From NCBI GenBank assembly GCA_905221605.1, contig CAJNDS010000091.1:203981-267980 (forward strand): a stretch of 64,000 bases of DNA, written 5' to 3'. The notes under the pieces are model-generated. The model saw only the letters and a program-made list of their open reading frames with translations, ran no database searches and had not been told where the DNA came from. Positions 14,437 through 44,438 of the stretch are shown here, in pieces. This stretch comes from Symbiodinium natans. Lineage: Eukaryota; Sar; Dinophyceae; Suessiales; Symbiodiniaceae. How positions within the stretch are numbered: the stretch's first letter is position 1; the number at the start of each line of letters is the position of its first letter. Made by a program: the position numbers and the translations under genes.

Positions 14437-14540
14437 CTTAGTTGCTGAGTTCATAAGCCCCCTCAAAAAGTGTACACTTTCAGTTCTATAGGGGATTATC
14501 GTATCAAAAAGTGGAAAGTGTACTCACTCAGAAAGTAAAG
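14437..14540. mobile_element. Single-unit relative of the 6055-6607 element
   Basis: The left end CTTAGTTGCTGAGT is identical to that of the 6055 element. The interior has one unit (CATAAGCCCCCTC...GTGTACACTTTCAG...TATAGGGGATTAT). The right end ACTCAGAAAGTAAAG is a degraded inverted repeat. It probably shows the element before, or without, tandem expansion. Confidence 0.7.
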
Positions 14541-21306: not shown

Positions 21307-22337
21307 CTTCAGTTCGCGATGTACTTGCACCCTACTTCTGAGGGCGTCGCAAGGACAAGCAACACAAGAGAAGCAGTAGGAGCACAGAAGGGCCCCCCGA
21401 GTTGACTAGAAAGCCAGCGCCTACTTCTGAGGGCGGCGCAAGAGGACAAACCTAAGAGAAACTCGAAAAAAGAGCCTTGCTGGGACCGATGTGTACGACC
21501 CTTATTATGCCCCTCACATGTTCAAGAGGTCGTTGGCACATGGAATGCTGCAATGGCCAATGATTGTGGGACGTCGTTGGGAGTGGGCCATCAAGGGTCA
21601 AGGAGTGGAGGGGCCACCGGAGTAGCGGGGGTAGCTCGTCTGAGCACTGCCCTTGCGTTTTCTCTGTGTAGAGTGATGCCCAGGGCCTGGTAGAGGCGTT
21701 CGGCTTCCTGGCTCGCCCCATCGCCGCTGCTGGTGCTCAACGCAAGTGCGAGGTCCTTCCAGGCCTTGACGGCCGCAGGCGCCCAGCCTCCCCCACACGC
21801 CTCCACGACGAGTGGGATGAATTGGAAGCCCGAAGCGCTGCACACGGCTTGTGTGTTCTGGTAAGTGCGCTTGCGGGCCTCGTAGTCCTCGACCGGCTTG
21901 CTCCCGTCGTTGGTGACGATTCGGAGGTTGCCCTGTTGGAGACCAGATGTGACGGCAAGGTCGAAGGCCGCCGGCCCGTGGGCCCCCCAGCTTCCGACCC
22001 AGACGTCGGCAGGCCTCCTGCCGCCCGCCCCACGGCCACCATCTTCAGGGGCGCCAGCTTCACAAGGGCGGGGAGGGAGGAGCCCAGGTTTTTCAACCTC
22101 AGGGTTGAGCCCGGCTGCTTGGGCGCGGGCTGCAAGGAGGGACCGGAGCCGATTATGGCGCTTCACGCGATCCCCTCCGCAAGGGCAGACCCGGGCATGG
22201 TCCCCCATACGGTCGTTCACCCCGTCGCACAGGGGGCAGGCTTCATCAGATGCCAAGACTGGGAGGCGCAGGCGCTGACGGAGCATGACCTTGAAGAGAG
22301 CTGGGGAGGCCTGCAGACCAAGAGCCTCTGCAGGTGG
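21307..22337 (-). mobile_element. 5'-truncated non-LTR retrotransposon 3' end
   Basis: On the minus strand the segment starts abruptly at a telomeric tract (22338-22431), runs through the C-terminal part of a LINE-type ORF, and ends in a 3' UTR of about 280 bp next to another repeat-rich area. The UTR holds two copies of CCTACTTCTGAGGGCG plus GCAAG (near 21331 and 21420 on the plus strand), a possible 3'-end recognition feature. Reverse transcriptase is missing, so the copy is dead. Confidence 0.65.
21591..22286 (-). pseudogene. LINE ORF C-terminus: zinc finger plus restriction-like endonuclease
   Basis: The frame reads 231 codons from an internal Met and extends a further 15 or so upstream (ASPALFKV) to the telomeric tract, so the start is truncation and not initiation. 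A zinc-binding motif CPLCDGVNDRMGDHARVCPC (C17, C20, H30, C34) is followed by RVKRHNRL. A PD-(D/E)XK-like pattern comes next: RRPADVW (D94), AFDLAVTS (D109) and YEARKRTY. This order matches the tail of endonuclease-bearing LINEs of the R2/R4 type and dinoflagellate LINEs. The nuclease nicks the target for cDNA priming. The stop follows LLDP. RT is absent. Confidence 0.65.
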
Positions 22338-33798: not shown

Positions 33799-35265
33799 CA
33801 TTTCCTCATGCCCAACTAAGAACCAGAGGGCAATCCCAAGGTCCCAACCGCTCTGCCTCAATGCCAGGCGTCATGCTCCGGCAGATCGTGGCAACTCTTC
33901 CGATGCAGCTCCTGGGCACCCTAAACACGAAGCCCTAAGTCCTAAGCCCTAAGCCCTAAACCCTAAACCCTAAACCCTTAAACTTAACCTAACCCTAAAG
34001 ACCAAACAGTGGAACACTCACACCAAGCCACTCAATACTTAGATGCCTTCCTCGCTCCGGGAGCCATGGCAGGAAAACCCATCACGAGTACCTGCAACAC
34101 TAGAAAAACATGGATACCTACCCTACACTTCCGGATGCTTGAATACGGGTTCATACCCCACTCCAAATATACACTTGGCGTCGAAAGCCTCTCAACTATG
34201 TCTATGCTGGACCCTGGGTAACCTGCATCATACAATACCTTGGAGGTTGAGAGCCCTAAACCCTAAACCCTGAACCCTAAACCCTAAACCCTAACCCCTA
34301 AACCCCAAACCCCAAACCCTAAACCCTAAACCCCAAACCCTAAACCCTAAACCCTACACCACCCGAAAGCTGCAGGGACCTTCACCACCTCGGTGGTGGC
34401 GCCGCTCAGGCCGTCCACGAAGCGGCAAGCGCCTAGAGATGCCTACCTCAGAATGCCCCTTAAAAAGCCTTATAGGACCCTAAACCCTAAACTCCAAACC
34501 CCAAACCCTAAACCCTAAACCCCAAACCCTAAACCCCAAACTCTAAACCCTGGCGTGCTGAACTGTCTGGAGAGCACGGTTGGCACGGGCTAAGGTCTTG
34601 GGTTCCCAAATCACTCCCCCCCCCCCCCCCCCCCCGAAGGTTTAGGGTTTAGGGTTTAGGGTTCAGGGTTTAAGGTTTAGGGTTTAGGGTTTCGGGAATA
34701 TCGCGATTATTGACACGGATGTGTAGATGACCATAGCATGTGAGGTTTGAAGGCGCAGGTATAGGGTCTAGGCTGCGCTTATCCCTGAATTCCGATCCCC
34801 AACCATAAGCACTGCAAACCCGACAAGCCCTGGGCGGCGCCCAGATGAGAGGCCCGAAGGCAGCTGTCGGGCTTATAAGTGGGTTGTAAGTACAGCTTTG
34901 ATTGGCTCGAAAGCAGCCTTACCCCTAAACCCTAAGCCCTACACCCCAAAACCCTAAACCCTAAACCCTACACCCCAAAACCCTAAGCCCTAAACTGCAG
35001 CTGTCATAGTGTCCGGTAGTAGAGTTCGAGATCAGGTCGAAAACTTCTCAGGGGTCTGCACGGGTGTTTCCGAAATTCTTTATGGGGTCCTTAGAAGAAG
35101 GGGATCCTAGTATTTGGGGGTCGAAAATAGGGGTCCCTGATTTTCGTAAACTCCCGCCAGGGTTTCATGGTTCAGGATTTTGGGGTTTGGGTTGGAGAAC
35201 TACGTGGTTCAGGGTCACTTGAGAGCTATATGAGGTCTAGGTACACTTTAAGCCCCTACAAGTCC

Positions 35266-35283
35266 TAAACCCTAAACCCTAAA
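35266..35283. repeat. Telomeric target site, left side, with CTAAA duplication
   Basis: Short CCCTAAA tract directly before the 5' LTR. Its last five bases, CTAAA (35279-35283), recur directly after the 3' LTR (43860-43864), a 5-bp target duplication typical of copia integrases. The tract continues at 43860-43891. Confidence 0.9.
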
Positions 35284-35432
35284 TGATAAACCCAACTTTC
35301 TGCAAGGCGTCGACGAGATCCGCCCGCAGGCTTTTGGTCAGAGGAAAACGTGCGCGAGGTCGTGCACAGCAGGCGGGGGCCCCGAGGGTCTTCTTTCGGT
35401 TGGGGTTCGGTTTCGTTCTCTTTGTTTTGTCA
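35284..35432 (+). repeat. 5' LTR (149 bp)
   Basis: It begins TGATAAACCC and ends TTTGTTTTGTCA, with the TG...CA termini of LTRs. It matches 43711-43859 at every base I compared. It is short for a copia LTR and should contain promoter and polyadenylation signals, but no TATA box or AATAAA is obvious. Confidence 0.97.
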
Positions 35433-35433
35433 T

Positions 35434-35446
35434 TGGTAGCGGAGCC
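35434..35446 (+). promoter_or_regulatory. Primer-binding site
   Basis: TGGTAGCGGAGCC lies one base after the 5' LTR. It begins TGG, the complement of tRNA 3' CCA, and resembles the initiator-Met tRNA site used by many copia elements (TGGTA..AGAG). The exact tRNA is not determined. Confidence 0.75.
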
Positions 35447-35557
35447 TAGGCCGCGGTCCTGGGCTAGGCTGGTGGTTCGTTGGTTTGTTTGTCTTGTCTT
35501 CCCTTGTTTGTTCTCGTCTTGTTTCGTGGTGGGAAGTGTAGGCAAAGCCTGTGTGCA

Positions 35558-38500
35558 ATGGCTTCGGATGGCCATGTGCCTACTGCCGGGCAAGACAGTG
35601 CAGCACCAGATCAGCATGCACCCTCTCTTGACACGAATGTGCCTGCGGCAGATCCTAGTCCTCACATGACCGTTGACGGGCGTCAGGGTGATCCTTGGCG
35701 TCATGATGATCCTTGGCGAACTTGGGATCGCTCGCATGGGGCCTGGGGACAGTCTACTTGGCGTAGCGCTGGGTGGTGGACTGGAGATGGCTACTATGGC
35801 GGGCGGCAGTGGTGGTATGATGCCTGGGATGATAGGGATGGTGCTAGGCATCCAAGTGGGGGTCAAGATTCCGGCCATTTTGGCAGGAACGATCAACGTG
35901 ATGCAACAGATCCGCGGGCCCACTACCAAGGTCCTCCTGAGGGACAGGCCGGTCGTCCTGATGACCAGGCCTCCGATGGCTCGGGCAGAGGCTCGGGTGA
36001 ATCTCGTGGGAGTGGTGCCAGCGAGGCACAATCGCCAGGAAGTGGTGGCCGATGTGACTACGGAGACCGAGATGCACAGGGCCCAGATAACAATCGTGTT
36101 CCTGGTCCTGACAGAGAGCGGAGAGGGAGCCTTGGGGAAACCACTTCCGGGACTTCCACGACCACGCCCCCGGTCCCTACTACGACCTCGAAAGAAGGCC
36201 AGGACTTCAAAGGTGGCCTGAGTGAGCGGATGGCTGTGCCGAGCTTTTCGGCAGACAAGACGGGGGATGAGCTTGGCAGCTCAGCCCGCTCGTACCTGAG
36301 GCAGATCGATGCCTGGTGCAAGGTGACGAGAACTCCGGCGTCGCAAAGAGCCCTCTTGCTTTACCAGAATCTTAGCGGAAGAGCGTGGGTGGAGTCTGAA
36401 GAGCTCAGTGTCGAGTTGTTGGCCTCCGAGTACGGCGTGCAGGAGTTTAAGAGATGGATCCAGGAAAGGTACCAGGAGATCGAGGTGTCGAAGATAGCCG
36501 AGGCCTTGACTCAGTTCTTCAAGAAGCTGAGACGTGAAGGAGGTCAGAGTATCCGTGAGTTCAACTCAGCATTCGACCGTGGCCACACCCGCTTATTGGA
36601 GATCGACTGTCGCCTCCCTGAAGTCGCAAAGGCCTGGGCGTACTTGAATGCCCTCGGCCTCACGAGTGCAGAGGAACTTGCCCTCCTTGCTTCCGTGGGC
36701 AATGAGTACAATACGGCAAAGTTGCAGAAGGCAGCAGTCCTCCACGAGAAGTCCTTTAAGCCCCCGTGGTTCGTGAGGCGCAACGGCAACGGCAATCCTG
36801 ATGGGGGCAAAGGAAAACCTGTGCGAGGTGCCTTCTTGACCGAGATTGACGAGGACGACATTGCCGAGGAGGAGACAGAGCACCTGATGACCGAGGAAGA
36901 AGCCTCTGAGATGCACGAGGCGTTCATGGCTCAGGAGTCAGCCAAGGCCCGGTACAGGGAGATCACGAAGGCTCGGGGAGTGGATCCTAGTTTTCTTCGC
37001 AAGGATGGTTCCAGGAACGAAGCCAGCAACAAGGATACTCCTGAGGCCAGGTTGCAGCTTGCCAAAAGTCGCTCGTATTGTGCTGGATGCCGCCGCAGGG
37101 GGCACTGGCACAAAGACCCAGAGCGCCCAATGAATCAGCCTGGAGGCCAGATGACGAAGCCTGGTGGTTCCTCGGGCGCCAAGGACAGCTCCAGGGAGGC
37201 GTTTGTGGTGCAGGTTGCCTATGAGGTCGGCTACATGGGGGGTCAGGGCTTGGTCGCCATCACCGACTCCGCATGCAGTAAATCTGTGGCGGGACAGGCG
37301 TGGCTCCAGAAGTACATGTTGGCTGCCCGGGAAGCGGGCCTTGAGATGCAGTTCATCGACACCCAGGACGACTTCAGGTTCGGGGCCTCCAAGCTTTCCC
37401 GGGCTACCTTCACTGCCACGATTGCGATCTTCGTTGGTGGACGCGGCTTCTTGGTCAGGGCTTCCATCGTCCAGGGAGAGGTCCCCCTTCTCCTGTCAAG
37501 AAACGTCCTGAGCAAGATTGGCATGCTTTATGATGTTGAAGGACACAGCGCCTCGTTTCGTCACCTTGGAGTACAAGATCTCAAGCTCCTCACGACGGAA
37601 AATGGACATCCGGCTATTCCCGTACGAGTGAAAGGGCTCCCGACGTTTGCTCTCCCAACGCCCCAGGAGTGGGCCGGGGACGAAGTGCGACTCCTTCCTT
37701 CCAGCGAGTCTCATGCCGCATACATGACCATGACATGTGAGAGTAGTGAGAGGGCCTCTGCATCAACCTTTGCTACTTCCAGGAGCTGTGAGTCAGCATG
37801 TGTTGCCGATGGAGGTGCCGATCGGAACCTCTCCCAGCCCTTCGAGACTATCTTTTATCCGAAGAAGTTATCGCCCTTTGTCTTCAACTTCTTGAGTGCC
37901 GAGGCTTTGAACACTGATGTTTTCATGCGTTGGTGGAGTGAGACCAAGCTTGCAAAGGACTTCTGGATAGAAACGGCTTCTTCTTTCATACGAATACACG
38001 TCATTCCCCGGAAAGCACTGTTCTCCCCCGATGCATGGCACACAAGTCAGAGCAACGTTCGAGATAAACTCCTCCACAACGTCGGGTCGTTCCGAAGCAC
38101 CACTGCTATAGCATGTCAGTCCTTGCAACTCCTTCCGAGTCGACATGACGCATGGCAGAGTTCACCCGAGTCAGCCCATTCAGCTCTTTGGGTCGGTAGG
38201 ACTGTGTTCCCTCGTACCCCTTTTCAGAGCAGCAGTTCGGAACATGTCGTCGCAGAAGGCCAAGACGCTCTGGAACATGAGTCGGAGCGAGTTGGTAGAA
38301 GAAGCTCATCGGCTGGAAGTGCCGATACACACTACATGGGGCAAGGAAGAGATACGTCAGCTGGTGTCAGAGAAGAGAAAGGAACTACATGGTCCATCCA
38401 GCGTCCCGAGAGGTCGCTCTTCAATGACGATGCCCGAGCTAGTCAAGAAGATGGACGAGCTGCAGATCCCGCTTCCACCGAAGCCCACCCGAGGACTCCT

Positions 38501-41029
38501 TCAGAGGATCATACGAGACTCGACAAGAGATCTGTCGGAACAGATCGTGACGTTCGGGAGGTAGAAGAACTTGCTCTTCAGAGAACTCCCACATTCGTAT
38601 CTTCGCTGGAGTCTTCAGGAAACAGCAGCGCAGGGATCGGGGGCGTCCCACGAGTTGAGGCAGCTAGCCAACTTTGCCCAGAAGGTCCTCAATCCTCAGA
38701 AGGAGACGTACCACGACCCAGAGATGAGTGCTGCAATCCCTTACCAACCGGATCCAGAGGAGACGAGTTCGACCTCAACGAAGTGGTCTTTGGTGACGGG
38801 GACTTCGGAGGCCATGGCAAGCGGGTACAATCAGGGCAAGAACCATGTCCCGACAGCGAAGCAGATGGGAGCCAAGCGCGGCATCGAATCCGAGGAGAGC
38901 AAGATGGCCCAAGACACTCCCCCGGAGGTACGAGAGGAACTCGAGGCACTAACCACCAGGATCGCCCTGCTCAAGGAGAAGCATGGAATGTGATTCTCTC
39001 GTGTGATGTTGACCTCGACAACGACGCTAGTGCCGAAGGGGTCCTAGATGTGTGCGGTATGGAGGCCAATGCTACCGGGGCCCCTGAAACCTTCTATGAG
39101 TGTCGAGAGTCCAGTGCCGAAGAGCTACCTCTTGAAGTCGTTGCACAAGACCTTTTGCGCACCAAGGATTACAGCTTCGAGAGTTGTGAAAAACTGGCCC
39201 GCCGAGTGTGTGAACATGCTAGGAACAGTAGACGAAGGCAAGCTCATGGGGAACAGGGGAGCTCGATTGCTTTTGGGGCCTATAGTCATGGTAACTTCCA
39301 CGGCATCATTAAGAAGACCTTCGACCATGTCTATGTTGTGCGCTACATGAATGCTTTCTTGCGGGCACATGGGGCCAAGGGTACCTGGAGTTCCCTCCAG
39401 ATCAATGTGAACTGTCGTCCTCTTGTACATCGTGATCAGCACAACCATAGCGACACCCTTGCAAGCACCATCTCCTTCGGAAATTTCCGCGGCGGTCGTC
39501 TGTGGATAGAAACGGATCCTGAAGCCCAGGTGCCAGAGATCGGTGTCCCCCACATTATGTCAGATGGCGAAGGGCGTGCTCTTTCAGGACACCTTGTCGA
39601 CACTCGTGCGCTCGTGAAGTTCGATGGTCGTCGTAAACATGGCGTAGAAGAGTGGGAAGGGGATCGTATCAGCATTACTGCTTACACAACACGTGGGGTG
39701 TCGCAACTGGCACGACAAGAACGGGACATGCTGAGAAGTTTTGGTTTCCCCGTTGGGCAGGATACCCCCACGAAGATCACCGTTGAGGACAAATCCTGGA
39801 AAAACGAACACGCCCGGCGACCCAAGAAGAGCATCAGAAGACAGATCATGCGAGGGGCTAGCCGAGCAAGTGCACTGTTGACCTTAAGTATGACGGCAGC
39901 TTCGAGTTACGTCGCCGAGGTAATGCTTCCGAGTTCATCCCCAGACAGACCATCAATCCTGGAAATTGGAGATTTCGCTGCTACCTACACCCTTGCAGGA
40001 AACGGCAGCTCAGTCATAGAACCGGTCTCGTGGGAGGATTTTGTCAACGATTCAGATTGCCAGAGAGTTCTCGAAACCACACATGCCCTACACCCATGTG
40101 TTGTCTGGATTCGAGGTCACGACGAGATCACCGATGCCAAGTCCAACGAAATCGCATCCCAGGTCTTCTCCGCTGCGTTGAATCAGATCCTCTTGGGGGG
40201 TATATTCGTTCTCAGCGGTAACAAAGAACACATGCTGTGGAGAGACCATGCCTTCAACAGCTTGCTTAACATGTATGAGACCCAGTTAGATGTCGACGCT
40301 CAAGGCTTTCAAGTGCTTCGTGTTGCGCAACCTGGAGTTCTGCAGCAAGGGCCTCATTCGGTATATGTCGGAGAGATCGAACAGCAGGATCCCGAAGGCG
40401 AACAACCCCAAGCTGTACCTCCTGAAAGGCTAGATGCCGCAAGGACTAGTAACATCAAGTTTGACGCTCAGGTCCCCAAGCCCGTTCAGGCTTCCCTTGG
40501 TCGACTTCATCAGAACCTCGGCCACACAAGCAACCATGACCTAGCGAGACATTTGAGACTTGCTGGAGCTGAAGAACATGTCATACAAGCATGCAAACAT
40601 CTGCGTTGTCAGGTTTGTGATCGTGCTAAGCAATCAGCTTCAGCGAGGCCTGCGTGTTTGCCATCTTTGTTGGATTTCAACCAGCTCGTGAGCGTCGACG
40701 TTTTCACAGTTTTCGATGCAGCCCAGGTGAAACATTCGTTGCTGTCCGTCATAGACCATGCTACAACGTTCCATCTTGTCGGAGAGCTTGAAGGGCATTC
40801 TGCCGAAGCCTTTGAGCGGAAGTTCACTCAGATGTGGGGATCTGTTTTTGGGGCACCAGGAACAATTGCTGCAGACTTGGAAACTGGTCTACAGGCCGGG
40901 CTGGCGAACTATGCTGAATTCCATGGATGCCGGCTTCGCCCCGCTGCAGGCCAGGCCCATTGGCAGCAAGGACTCATTAGAGCGTCATGGGCTCTGGTAT
41001 CAGGCTATGCTCAGAAAAGTCATAGATGA
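35558..41029 (+). CDS. Gag, protease, dioxygenase-like domain, integrase N-terminal part
   Basis: The start at 35558 is the first ATG of an open frame that extends upstream only through non-ATG codons. Residue numbers count from it. Residues 1-220 are a Gly/Asp/Trp-rich N-terminus (DPW repeats); about 225-405 are Gag capsid-like; 508-523 are a zinc knuckle, CAGCRRRGHWHKDPERP, whose expected last Cys is Arg523. Protease has Asp570 in DSAC. About 1200-1385 are a 2OG-Fe(II) dioxygenase-like domain; about 1462-1600 are methyltransferase-like. Integrase has H1651, H1656, C1684, C1687, then D1714 and D1773. The frame leaves the integrase sequence near 40976-40981. Between about 38220 and 38990 it is open but probably not the ancestral frame. 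Confidence 0.85.
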   Translation: MASDGHVPTAGQDSAAPDQHAPSLDTNVPAADPSPHMTVDGRQGDPWRHDDPWRTWDRSHGAWGQSTWRSAGWWTGDGYYGGRQWWYDAWDDRDGARHPSGGQDSGHFGRNDQRDATDPRAHYQGPPEGQAGRPDDQASDGSGRGSGESRGSGASEAQSPGSGGRCDYGDRDAQGPDNNRVPGPDRERRGSLGETTSGTSTTTPPVPTTTSKEGQDFKGGLSERMAVPSFSADKTGDELGSSARSYLRQIDAWCKVTRTPASQRALLLYQNLSGRAWVESEELSVELLASEYGVQEFKRWIQERYQEIEVSKIAEALTQFFKKLRREGGQSIREFNSAFDRGHTRLLEIDCRLPEVAKAWAYLNALGLTSAEELALLASVGNEYNTAKLQKAAVLHEKSFKPPWFVRRNGNGNPDGGKGKPVRGAFLTEIDEDDIAEEETEHLMTEEEASEMHEAFMAQESAKARYREITKARGVDPSFLRKDGSRNEASNKDTPEARLQLAKSRSYCAGCRRRGHWHKDPERPMNQPGGQMTKPGGSSGAKDSSREAFVVQVAYEVGYMGGQGLVAITDSACSKSVAGQAWLQKYMLAAREAGLEMQFIDTQDDFRFGASKLSRATFTATIAIFVGGRGFLVRASIVQGEVPLLLSRNVLSKIGMLYDVEGHSASFRHLGVQDLKLLTTENGHPAIPVRVKGLPTFALPTPQEWAGDEVRLLPSSESHAAYMTMTCESSERASASTFATSRSCESACVADGGADRNLSQPFETIFYPKKLSPFVFNFLSAEALNTDVFMRWWSETKLAKDFWIETASSFIRIHVIPRKALFSPDAWHTSQSNVRDKLLHNVGSFRSTTAIACQSLQLLPSRHDAWQSSPESAHSALWVGRTVFPRTPFQSSSSEHVVAEGQDALEHESERVGRRSSSAGSADTHYMGQGRDTSAGVREEKGTTWSIQRPERSLFNDDARASQEDGRAADPASTEAHPRTPSEDHTRLDKRSVGTDRDVREVEELALQRTPTFVSSLESSGNSSAGIGGVPRVEAASQLCPEGPQSSEGDVPRPRDECCNPLPTGSRGDEFDLNEVVFGDGDFGGHGKRVQSGQEPCPDSEADGSQARHRIRGEQDGPRHSPGGTRGTRGTNHQDRPAQGEAWNVILSCDVDLDNDASAEGVLDVCGMEANATGAPETFYECRESSAEELPLEVVAQDLLRTKDYSFESCEKLARRVCEHARNSRRRQAHGEQGSSIAFGAYSHGNFHGIIKKTFDHVYVVRYMNAFLRAHGAKGTWSSLQINVNCRPLVHRDQHNHSDTLASTISFGNFRGGRLWIETDPEAQVPEIGVPHIMSDGEGRALSGHLVDTRALVKFDGRRKHGVEEWEGDRISITAYTTRGVSQLARQERDMLRSFGFPVGQDTPTKITVEDKSWKNEHARRPKKSIRRQIMRGASRASALLTLSMTAASSYVAEVMLPSSSPDRPSILEIGDFAATYTLAGNGSSVIEPVSWEDFVNDSDCQRVLETTHALHPCVVWIRGHDEITDAKSNEIASQVFSAALNQILLGGIFVLSGNKEHMLWRDHAFNSLLNMYETQLDVDAQGFQVLRVAQPGVLQQGPHSVYVGEIEQQDPEGEQPQAVPPERLDAARTSNIKFDAQVPKPVQASLGRLHQNLGHTSNHDLARHLRLAGAEEHVIQACKHLRCQVCDRAKQSASARPACLPSLLDFNQLVSVDVFTVFDAAQVKHSLLSVIDHATTFHLVGELEGHSAEAFERKFTQMWGSVFGAPGTIAADLETGLQAGLANYAEFHGCRLRPAAGQAHWQQGLIRASWALVSGYAQKSHR
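37079..37126 (+). other. Gag zinc knuckle lacking its last Cys
   Basis: C508, C511 and H516 fit a CCHC knuckle. In related dinoflagellate copia proteins, as I recall them, the end reads DPEC; here DPER is encoded with CGC at 37124-37126, a single transition from TGC. Packaging of element RNA would be expected to suffer. Confidence 0.6.
38241..38993 (+). pseudogene. Out-of-frame SAP-like and TFGR module of the polyprotein
   Basis: In the +1 frame relative to gag-pol the DNA reads MSRSELVEEAHRLEVPIHTT (from 38277), a SAP-like helix-extended loop, then MTMPELVKKMDELQIPLPPK (from 38424), PKPTRGLLQRIIRD, and TFGR followed by TAG (38562-38564). KNLLFRELPHSYLRW and a coiled-coil-like end (EVREELEALTTRIALLKEK) come next, with a TGA at 38991. 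This arrangement is familiar from dinoflagellate copia polyproteins. The gag-pol frame over the same bases is Ser/Arg/Gly-rich and lacks domain character. So the true module seems to have been thrown out of frame by an indel near the CCCCTTTT at 38217-38224, with a compensating change near 38990. Confidence 0.65.
39158..39715 (+). other. 2OG-Fe(II) dioxygenase-like domain
   Basis: Within the polyprotein the sequence VNCRPLVHRDQHN gives the HxD motif (H1291, D1293), SFGNFRGGRLWIE follows as the expected core strands, and KHGVEEWEGDRISITAY supplies the distal His (H1361) and the 2-oxoglutarate-binding Arg (R1370). The 68-residue D-to-H and 9-residue H-to-R spacings fit double-stranded beta-helix dioxygenases. 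TET/JBP and AlkB proteins in this superfamily oxidise methylated or other bases; the substrate here is unknown. All four key residues are present, so the domain could be active if expressed. Confidence 0.7.
39941..40360 (+). other. Degenerate methyltransferase-like domain (tentative)
   Basis: The order SILEIGDFAATYTLAGNG (near residue 1466), IEPVSWEDF, HPCVVWIRGHDE (near 1518), then NQILLGGIFVLSGNKEHMLW resembles the Rossmann pattern of DNA cytosine methyltransferases: motif I, an acidic strand, the motif IV region, then GGxFVLEN. The catalytic Pro-Cys of motif IV is missing (RGHD instead), as is the usual glycine-rich loop. If the assignment is right, the domain is inactive. Structure prediction would be needed to confirm it. 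Confidence 0.35.
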
Positions 41030-43685
41030 GAAGTCCATCGACGCTAGCGACCTTTACTATGCCTTGCAAGCAGTGAACTCAGCTAAGAACGAGCTGCGCC
41101 GGAGACATGGTTTCTCACCAACCCAAGCTGTGTTCGGAAAAGATCCCAAAATCCCAGGAGAACTGTGCGCTGGCGATGACGAAGAACGATACCTGGAAAT
41201 ACTTTCACATGATCGCCAACGACAACGGGAGATGCATATTCGTGCCTCGGCCAGGATCGCCTTTTACAGAACACAACTTGATTCGAAGCTTCGTCGTGCA
41301 CTTATCCAGCGGGCTCGAGTTAAGCGTGGAGGGTACTGCGTCGGGGAGTTGGTGTGCTTTTTCAGAGTTGACAAAGGAGGGACAAAGTCCAACTTCAAAC
41401 GAGGTAAGTGGCGGGGGCCCGGAACGATCATTGGACATGAAGGTGGTAACTGGTGGGTTTCTTTTGGTGGGCGGTGTCATCTTGTCGCTGAAGAACATCT
41501 CCGTCCTAGCACTTCTGAAGAGCTTGGAGAAATCCTAACCACCAGGATTGCCCGCGATGATCTTGAACGACTTCTTAACCTAGATCCCGATGACCCCGCT
41601 ACGTATGAAGATGAAGATCATGCTGACGACATTGATGCAGACGAAGGACAAGAACAACTTGAGGGTGATGAAATGGATTTTCAGTTCGATCTCGAACCCG
41701 AGGATTTGAAAGATGAACTCACTGCAGAAGATAGGCCTACCAGCGAGCGACGAGGACTCGAAGCTCCTGTACCTCCTCCTGTCCCCAAGAGAGTTAGGAA
41801 GAAAGGGCCTGGAGTCCAGTCGGTTCACATGTTAAAACAATGCCGTACAGCCAGGTCCCTCGAAAAACAATACGAGAAGGAGATCCCCTGGGCAGTAATC
41901 CCACCAGAACAACATAGTGCCTTCCGACAAGCAGAGGAGAAACAGTACGACGAACACATCAAGTATCAGGCCCTGGAGCCTTTGTCGCTCGAAGAAAGTG
42001 CTCGTGTTCGTGAGTGTGTGGACAAAAGTCGTATCCTGTCTTCAAGGTTTGCCTACAAAGACAAGAACTGGTCCCGGCGGAAGCTTGATTCTAGTCTTCC
42101 TTGGAAACCGAAGGCGAGGATCGTCGTGTCTGGACACCGCGATCCAGATATCGGTCTCCTAGACACCGACGCGCCCACCATCAACAGACTATCGGTGCTC
42201 ACCATCATGCAGCTTGTAGCAAGTCGGAGGCAATCTCATGGGTGGGAGGCATCAGCAGGTGACATTACTGCAGCTTTTCTCAACGGAGATGCTCTGGAAA
42301 GGGTCTTGTATCTCAGACAGCCCCGTTCAGGTCTTGCTTCTCTACATCCAGACCAACTGCTACGAATCACCAAAGGTATCTTTGGCCTTCCTGACAGTCC
42401 TCGCAAATGGTGGAGGCGCTTCCGAAAGGACATGTTAGCAGCGCGGCTAAGTGTAGAGGGCGTTGAGTACAAGTTTGTGCAGAATGCGCTTGACCCTTGC
42501 CTTTTTCAGCTTGTTCCGTCCGATAATGAAGCTAGCGAACCGGCAGCGTATGCCGGAGTACATGTCGATGACATCCTGGTTGCTGGCGACAAGAAGATGT
42601 CCGAAGCTATTCGCAATGCCCTCTCGAGCATCTTCTCAGTCGACGACTGGGAGATCAACAGCTTCGACTACATTGGAAGCCACATCGAGGTGAATGACTC
42701 AGGTGTCTTCATCAGTCAAGAGGCGTATGCTGGAGGGCGACTGTTCCAAATCGACATCGGCAAGGAGCAGGAAGATGAAGAGCCTGCTTCTGAAGAACAA
42801 CGAATCGACAACCAGTCTCTCATCGGCGCCCTTTCCTGGCTTGGATCCCAGAGTCGTCCCGATATTCAATGCTCAGTTTCGCTTGCACAACAACTCCAAA
42901 AGAACCCAAGCGTTGCTGACCTGAAGTTCACCAACCAGATAGCGCGACGAGCGTGGGATCACCGAGACAAAGGGATTTGGCTACGACCTTTGAAACTTGA
43001 GAGCCTAGAGTTTTTAGTGTACCACGACTCGGCATGGGCGAATGCAGAGCTCACGGGTGAGGATGGTTTCCGCCTCGAGTACGAGGACCATGTCAGCGGC
43101 GTCATGAAGAATACACCTTTTGACATCAAAGAAAGAAAGGCCAAACGGGCGAATTCCAAGGTCGCCAGCCAGTTCGGAATCCTCATCTTCTTGACCGATG
43201 GAGAGCAGTACTCAGCTGGAGGAGGCATAGGAAGCATCCTTGACTGGAAGAGTTCGGCAAACCCTAGGGTGTGTCGCTCAACGTTCGGGGCTGAAACCAC
43301 AGGCTGTTCCGAGGCCATCGAGATGGGGCAGTATGTGAGATCCTTTGTGCAAACAGTGCTGCGCGGCCGCCTCCAACGTGTACAGGACTTGAGCGGCAGT
43401 CAGCTGAAGTGCATCACGGATTGCAAATCACTATTCGACCATTTGCATCGAGAAGGCATCCCAAGGATCCCTTCAGACAAACGTCTAGCCATAGATCTCG
43501 CTGCGTTGAGGCAATATCTGTGTGAAGAGCAAGCCAATGGCAAACCTCCACTCTTTTGGGTCCCCACCGAGTTCCAACTTGCTGATATCCTTACCAAACC
43601 TAAGTGTGCTGATTCATGGTGGGCGACCGTGTGGGGAGCAGTGAGACTTCCATTTATTTCCAAGGATGCGACGAAGCATCGTTGA
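40980..43685 (+). CDS. Integrase C-terminal part, reverse transcriptase, RNase H
   Basis: This frame begins to match integrase at ERHG (catalytic Glu at 40980-40982), 34 residues after the second Asp if one base is removed. It continues through a GPY/F-like module (GELVCFFR..., KWRGPGTIIG), an acidic linker and reverse transcriptase with KARIVVSG, DITAAFLNG, GIFGLPDSPRKWW and the active site HVDDILVAG (Asp pair at 42567-42572). RNase H residues are Asp in YHDSA (43026), Glu in GAETT (43293), Asp in TDCKS (43419) and Asp in LADILTK (43584). The frame is open upstream to 40758 but that part is a shadow of integrase. It ends at TGA 43683-43685. RT and RNase H look intact. Confidence 0.9.
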   Translation, partial: ERHGLWYQAMLRKVIDEKSIDASDLYYALQAVNSAKNELRRRHGFSPTQAVFGKDPKIPGELCAGDDEERYLEILSHDRQRQREMHIRASARIAFYRTQLDSKLRRALIQRARVKRGGYCVGELVCFFRVDKGGTKSNFKRGKWRGPGTIIGHEGGNWWVSFGGRCHLVAEEHLRPSTSEELGEILTTRIARDDLERLLNLDPDDPATYEDEDHADDIDADEGQEQLEGDEMDFQFDLEPEDLKDELTAEDRPTSERRGLEAPVPPPVPKRVRKKGPGVQSVHMLKQCRTARSLEKQYEKEIPWAVIPPEQHSAFRQAEEKQYDEHIKYQALEPLSLEESARVRECVDKSRILSSRFAYKDKNWSRRKLDSSLPWKPKARIVVSGHRDPDIGLLDTDAPTINRLSVLTIMQLVASRRQSHGWEASAGDITAAFLNGDALERVLYLRQPRSGLASLHPDQLLRITKGIFGLPDSPRKWWRRFRKDMLAARLSVEGVEYKFVQNALDPCLFQLVPSDNEASEPAAYAGVHVDDILVAGDKKMSEAIRNALSSIFSVDDWEINSFDYIGSHIEVNDSGVFISQEAYAGGRLFQIDIGKEQEDEEPASEEQRIDNQSLIGALSWLGSQSRPDIQCSVSLAQQLQKNPSVADLKFTNQIARRAWDHRDKGIWLRPLKLESLEFLVYHDSAWANAELTGEDGFRLEYEDHVSGVMKNTPFDIKERKAKRANSKVASQFGILIFLTDGEQYSAGGGIGSILDWKSSANPRVCRSTFGAETTGCSEAIEMGQYVRSFVQTVLRGRLQRVQDLSGSQLKCITDCKSLFDHLHREGIPRIPSDKRLAIDLAALRQYLCEEQANGKPPLFWVPTEFQLADILTKPKCADSWWATVWGAVRLPFISKDATKHR

Positions 43686-43699
43686 AGGGGGGAAGAGAA
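43684..43699 (+). promoter_or_regulatory. Polypurine tract
   Basis: GAAGGGGGGAAGAGAA immediately follows the gag-pol stop and ends 11 bp before the 3' LTR. It should prime plus-strand DNA synthesis. The gap of about a dozen bases to the LTR is slightly larger than usual. Confidence 0.75.
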
Positions 43700-43710
43700 T
43701 TTTTAAGCAG

Positions 43711-43859
43711 TGATAAACCCAACTTTCTGCAAGGCGTCGACGAGATCCGCCCGCAGGCTTTTGGTCAGAGGAAAACGTGCGCGAGGTCGTGCACAGCAGG
43801 CGGGGGCCCCGAGGGTCTTCTTTCGGTTGGGGTTCGGTTTCGTTCTCTTTGTTTTGTCA
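43711..43859 (+). repeat. 3' LTR (149 bp)
   Basis: Same sequence as 35284-35432, from TGATAAACCC to TTTTGTCA, directly followed by CTAAACCCTAAACCC. Confidence 0.97.
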
Positions 43860-44438
43860 CTAAACCCTAAACCCTAAACCCTAAACCCTAAGAGAGGGTG
43901 AAAGGGACCCTGAGCTGTTGAGATGCCGGGCGCCTGCCGCTGCGGACACGGAGCCAAGCCTGGGCTTCTCAGCTGTAGTAGGGCTTAGGGTTTAGGGTTT
44001 AGGGTTTAGGGTTTATGGTTTAGGGTTTTGGACAAGCAGTATGTGCATGTATATATAGTTTTTATATATCTGCATGTATAAGCTAAAGCTCTTGTGGGGG
44101 GCGGCGGGGGTTTGGGGGTTTGGGAGGTTGACGGTCCTGTTACCCTGAACCCTAAACCCTAAATTGTTGAAGGACATACATCCAATGCTGTTGAGCTGCG
44201 ACTGCCAAACGTGCACTGATCTGTCGGCTGTGCTTCTGTTACCGCTAAGCCTTAAGCCCTAAGCCCTATGCCCTAAAGCCTAAACCCTAAAGCTAAACCC
44301 TAAACCCCAAACCCCAAACCCGAAACCCTGAACCCCTAAATCTCAGCATCAAAGGACCTACTCTTTGGTGGGCCCTAAAAACCCTCTGAAAAGTATGAGA
44401 TCCTCTTAAACCCAGTAGGGGTTTAGGGTTTAGGGTTT

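Follow-up and report, generated by a model that had tools for sequence, protein, structure and literature searches.

We analysed a 64,000-nucleotide stretch of the Symbiodinium natans genome (assembly GCA_905221605.1, contig CAJNDS010000091.1, positions 203,981 to 267,980 of the forward strand), hereafter the window, in whose coordinates all positions are given. It holds a Copia-type long terminal repeat (LTR) retrotransposon on the plus strand (35284-43859), recognised by its paired LTRs and pol-type motifs, and the polyprotein of this element contains a TET/JBP-like 2-oxoglutarate (2OG)/Fe(II) oxygenase domain (39158-39715, plus strand). The 149-nt 5' LTR (35284-35432) begins with TG, ends with CA and is 100% identical to the 149-nt 3' LTR (43711-43859). 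Immediately 3' of the 5' LTR lies a primer-binding-site-like stretch, TTGGTAGCGGAGCC (35433-35446), which we take to resemble tRNA-Met-type primer-binding sites, and a polypurine-tract-like purine tract, GAAGGGGGGAAGAGAA (43684-43699), is found 5' of the 3' LTR. The element is embedded in CCCTAAA telomere-like repeats (35255-35283 and 43860-43890), and such arrays occur in both orientations throughout the window. CTAAA is present on both flanks, a candidate duplication of about 5 bp; since the flanks are themselves CCCTAAA repeats, a target duplication cannot be proved from this pair.

The interior is covered by two plus-strand open frames. The first (35480-41029, ATG at 35558) encodes Gag-like and protease-like sequence, the oxygenase domain, a region of unassigned fold and the integrase as far as its core. 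By eye, we located a Gag zinc-knuckle-like motif, CxxC...H, without its last Cys (37073-37129), a protease-like active-site motif, TDSACSKSVAG (37256-37294), and integrase motifs (40496-40888) that comprise an HHCC zinc motif (40496-40627) and the first catalytic Asp motifs. A Pfam scan of the protease-like stretch (36980-38200) gave no match at E <= 1. Used as a seed, the integrase stretch led to integrase regions in related elements, and one of these regions hits Pfam rve with E 7.7e-5, short of the cut-off. The second open frame (40758-43685) encodes the end of integrase, a reverse transcriptase (RT) with an HVDD motif (41883-42827) and RNase H, whose motifs, also assigned by eye, extend up to LADILTKP (43020-43601). 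The RT matches Pfam RVT_2 at E 6e-14 (52.7 bits against a cut-off of 31.6). The element thus shows the order protease, integrase, RT and RNase H, and in its relatives profiles place integrase upstream of RT. It is a Copia (Ty1/copia) LTR retrotransposon. The pol reading frame shifts within the integrase core near 40975 (40958-41029); in some sister copies the oxygenase domain and RT lie in one long open frame, so the shift looks specific to the window copy or its assembly.

Within the oxygenase domain, the open frame reads HRDQHN...FGNFRGGRLW...KHGVEEWEGDR. HRDQHN (39428-39445) carries two predicted iron ligands, His and Asp, and an invariant Asn, and KHGVEEWEGDR (39635-39667) carries the predicted third iron ligand, His, and a 2OG-type Arg. 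The initial annotation of this DNA had placed H1291, D1293, H1361 and an Arg nine residues further on in a domain between protease and integrase. Translation of the frame from the ATG at 35558, which is residue 27 of the open frame, yields these same residues, and the domain lies 3' of the protease-like motif and 5' of the integrase zinc motif. The DNA form of the motif matched once in the window and never in 100 shuffles, which indicates that the motif is not due to chance. A stricter motif pattern had no match in a viral contig collection and a single match in a prokaryote genome collection, in a Planctomyces metagenome-assembled genome, where it encodes no relative. No relatives were found when the viral contigs were searched by protein, nor when phages were searched by tblastn with three copies; one of these tblastn runs hit Erwinia phage rIIB four times at E 0.7, which was dismissed as chance. 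A PHROGs search gave no result, and neither did phmmer of the single domain against the PDB.

We searched the genome to which the window belongs (759 Mb in 2543 contigs). It contains 205 exact copies of the dinoflagellate spliced-leader sequence, against none of the reversed control, and we treat it as that of a dinoflagellate. Five domain queries returned 1461, 1512, 1421, 1366 and 1424 first-look candidates, and the best 150 of each were scored. For the query with 1461 candidates, of which the best 150 were scored, the 150 matches listed had E <= 1.3e-22 and no internal stop, and they were spread over many contigs. Each of the other queries likewise had 150 matches listed. Among the listed matches of the five queries together, internal stops occurred at only two places (one TAA, one TGA). 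We fetched 48 copies and then 10 more, two of which repeated places already sampled (L050 that of L035, L058 that of L018). L008, which loses its frame near the end, and L013, which contains a stop, were excluded before residues were counted. Conservation of the His/Asp/His residues and the Arg in related elements had been set as a check by the initial annotation, and all four are conserved in each of the 32 copies that are less than 90% alike. Twelve columns are invariant in this set, including H91, D93, N96, W116, H161 and R170 (P0001 numbering), at 29-45% identity of the other 31 copies to the window copy.

To describe selection on the domain, we calculated pairwise ratios of non-synonymous to synonymous substitution rates (dN/dS) with our own script (Nei-Gojobori). 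At dS 0.75-0.83, two pairs that have one copy in common and near-identical partners gave 0.046 and 0.052, with 65 synonymous changes against 15 or 17 non-synonymous ones, and a ratio of 0.111 was obtained from 69 synonymous and 39 non-synonymous changes. Two pairs at dS 0.10-0.14, again with one copy in common, gave 0.061 and 0.062. We did not lean on two near-saturated pairs (dS 1.32 and 1.49), whose ratios of 0.60 and 0.61 would at face value mean weaker constraint, or on five pairs at dS < 0.04, whose ratios of 0.14-0.47 each come from a handful of changes. The few informative pairs thus speak for purifying selection acting at the protein level.

An AlphaFold2 model of the domain was confident (predicted local distance difference test score 92.4, predicted template modelling score 0.88). 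In a structural comparison with VIA-align over 999 of the top 1000 Foldseek-ranked chains, model residues 8-196 aligned to the double-stranded beta-helix of TET and AlkB structures, which came first in the list. NgTET1 gave the top matches, at Z 11.6 and 11.5, and 45 of the best 50 structural rows were TET or AlkB/FTO-family entries. The initial annotation had named two outcomes that would refute it, a predicted structure lacking this beta-helix and a lack of conservation of the His/Asp/His residues, and neither was observed. With its predicted beta-helix fold, its HxD...H triad and its 2OG-type Arg, the modelled domain is a predicted member of the 2OG-Fe(II) oxygenase superfamily. The claim of the initial annotation that a Copia polyprotein bears a 2OG-Fe(II) oxygenase-like domain is therefore supported by the predicted fold, the conserved residues and the RVT_2 match.

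Sequence profiles further suggest a place within this superfamily. At a threshold of E <= 1, Pfam Tet_JBP (PF12851) was matched by 9 copies out of 32, the best of them at 2.6e-6, a profile search of the PDB listed CcTet, and the HRDxHN string is the same as in TET2. We consider it probable that the domain is a working TET/JBP-type 2OG/Fe(II) oxygenase, which dinoflagellate Copia elements captured and have kept because it benefits them, with oxidation of 5-methylpyrimidines as its likely reaction.

Several results weigh against this assignment. ALKBH5, at Z 10.8, stands less than one Z unit below NgTET1, which amounts to a tie. None of the 32 copies reached the curated Tet_JBP cut-off (best 27.2 against 34.9 bits), and the window copy alone matched the model at E 0.017. 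Matches to 2OG-FeII_Oxy_3 in three of the 32 copies (best 6.6e-6) and to 2OG-FeII_Oxy in one belong to the wider superfamily. The top match of the PDB profile search was a hemagglutinin (E 0.0066), a repeat-type local match. A whole-genome search with the Tet_JBP model gave no matches; it detected 0 of 14 controls and so is silent on a host TET gene. Finally, the dN/dS values come from few pairs.

The tie with ALKBH5 would fit a domain of the AlkB family (ALKBH5, ALKBH2/3, AlkB) that strips N-methyl groups from the RNA or DNA of the element, in repair or in erasure of N6-methyladenosine (m6A) or N6-methyladenine (6mA), and thereby protects genome RNA or cDNA. We regard this as unlikely, because the Pfam AlkB model, presumably 2OG-FeII_Oxy_2, is not among the 14 families that the 32 copies matched at E <= 1, whereas Tet_JBP is, because AlkB is absent from the PDB profile list in which CcTet appears, and because of the string shared with TET2. 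The 2OG-FeII_Oxy_3 matches would instead suit a protein hydroxylase of the 2OG-FeII_Oxy_3/P4H/EGLN kind, acting for example on Gag, integrase or a host factor. This is decidedly improbable: PHD2 ranked only 49th of the 50 best structural rows, 2.5 Z units under NgTET1, the rows are mostly TET or AlkB/FTO-family, and more copies matched Tet_JBP than 2OG-FeII_Oxy_3. There is very little chance that the fold has been retained as a structural or nucleic-acid-binding Pol module after loss of catalysis. In a set of 56 rows that includes near-identical copies and represents 54 distinct places, H, D, H and R were present in 56, 56, 56 and 55 rows, and conservation of the iron triad and Arg argues against such a module, which would not need them. 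The general weakness of single-sequence matches such as the E of 0.017 could be taken to favour an artefact (a chance motif, an assembly error, or a host gene beside a Copia fragment), a reading of negligible probability that is already refuted by the 150 listed genome matches over many contigs, the domain itself lying in one open frame with Gag-like and integrase sequence, with LTRs at both ends.

We also followed the domain across related elements. A search with the window RT gave 127 matches and, less five second pieces of one element, 122 places. The domain matches used to establish linkage are the best 150 per query, so the linkage counts are lower bounds. At least 41 of the 47 RT places at 43% identity or above, at least 4 of the 18 at 36-42%, and at least 12 of the 57 at 35% or below are preceded, within 6 kb, by a domain match in the same orientation. 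More distant Copia lineages may be without the oxygenase domain. Of 20 ten-kb loci inspected, 13 have integrase 3' of the domain and one (L026) has it 5', while in six no integrase was found; RT follows the domain in 16 of the loci, and in the other four none was found. Direct repeats of 150-302 nt flanked the domain on both sides in eight of these loci. In six elements (L026, which is G000 C469, and G000 C37, C558, C1764, C1991 and C2032), the domain starts 0.7-0.8 kb 5' of the RT match, and in the five other than L026 integrase was not located. Pol thus carries the domain at no fewer than two different sites. Oxygenase and RT distances were weakly correlated (Spearman 0.25, 136 pairs, 17 elements); the data thus do not show that every lineage inherited the domain vertically from an early date, and shuffling between families is possible.

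In comparison with known TET/JBP enzymes (NgTET1, human TET2, Coprinopsis CcTet; PF12851), the Copia domain has in common the HxD...H...R residues, the HRDxHN string of TET2 and a predicted fold for which NgTET1 ranks first, in a tie with ALKBH5. It differs in its length of about 190 residues, in its 10-19% identity to TET entries in structural alignment, in scoring below the Pfam cut-off, and in its location inside a retrotransposon Pol polyprotein. The fungal elements with a TET/JBP enzyme (Kyakuja, Zisupton, Helitron and others; PMC12730594) are likewise mobile, and their oxygenase has multiplied with the element, but they are DNA transposons or Helitrons, whereas here the domain lies in the Pol frame of a dinoflagellate LTR retrotransposon. 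That survey, which covers fungi, proposes for the fungal enzymes the same role as the one that we infer below, and notes, with a reason, the absence of TET/JBP-bearing retrotransposons. Symbiodinium long interspersed nuclear elements (LINEs) and DIRS elements with a DNA methyltransferase (DNMT) are also dinoflagellate retroelements with a captured DNA-modifying enzyme, in their case a methyltransferase rather than an oxygenase; according to PMC5890265, Copia elements are without any DNMT domain, and the words TET, dioxygenase and 2OG do not occur. The top-ranked results of full-text literature searches included no report of a TET-like domain in dinoflagellate Copia elements; earlier mention is possible in subscription papers, for instance in work on TET/JBP evolution. 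A diverse Copia set with a conserved TET-like domain fills the retrotransposon gap beside DNMT-bearing LINE/DIRS elements and TET/JBP-bearing DNA transposons.

From this anatomy we infer how a TET/JBP-kind oxygenase might serve the element. It would be produced within Pol, mostly adjoining integrase, and because of this position it would accompany the cDNA and the integration complex, and would be present at the sites of cDNA synthesis and integration. Its most likely reaction would be 5-methyl oxidation of a pyrimidine, either of 5-methylcytosine or of thymine to hydroxymethyluracil, and its target may be the cDNA of the element itself or the surroundings of the insertion site. A new copy could then evade methylation-based silencing or match the modified chromosomes of the host. 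Catalytic activity, a nucleic-acid substrate, the choice of base and the benefit to the element, like the age and source of the capture, are proposed here from sequence and predicted structure.

Oxidation of DNA or RNA bases by the domain could provide a link to hydroxymethyluracil, which the initial annotation had raised. Thymine in dinoflagellate nuclear DNA is partly replaced by this base, according to PMC3853145 and PMC6680887. In a Breviolum hydroxymethyluracil study (PMC11071213) most repeats were enriched; the word dioxygenase is absent from it, and 'tet' occurs twice, as a promoter name. It is quite unlikely that Copia-borne TET/JBP-like oxygenases are one source of hydroxymethyluracil in dinoflagellate chromosomes. 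Were it so, the elements would hydroxylate thymine both within themselves and in neighbouring DNA, the unusual DNA chemistry of the host would have arisen from, or still be fed by, retrotransposon enzymes, and the enzyme family may exceed a thousand genes in a single genome (1366-1512 first-look candidates per query, with the best 150 scored). The Copia domains are concrete, expressible candidates for an enzyme of the hydroxymethyluracil type, and thus make an old question testable in vitro.

The region without recognised fold in the window element (39953-40240, plus strand) may be related to a second enzyme. In copies L011 and L019, the stretch between oxygenase and integrase contains cytosine-5-methyltransferase-like motifs (FGG, PPC and EQP). 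The window region, which has no Pfam match at E <= 1, is a shorter, worn-looking counterpart that aligns weakly to this stretch (hhalign probability 37%, E 3.5e-4); as a weak lead, it may have decayed from a C5-methyltransferase-like domain. The methyltransferase-like stretch gave no methyltransferase match in Pfam (E <= 1) or among PDB sequences, and a poor predicted model, with middling structural matches that include DNMTs. A single element with both methyltransferase-like and TET-like domains would, if real, be remarkable. Elsewhere in the window, a tandem array with a unit of 63-65 nt (TGCTGAGTTCATAAGCCCCC...) occupies 6060-6571, and a lone copy, 92% identical, lies about 8 kb away at 14443-14505. 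An ATG-initiated open frame of 231 amino acids is present on the minus strand at 21591-22286.

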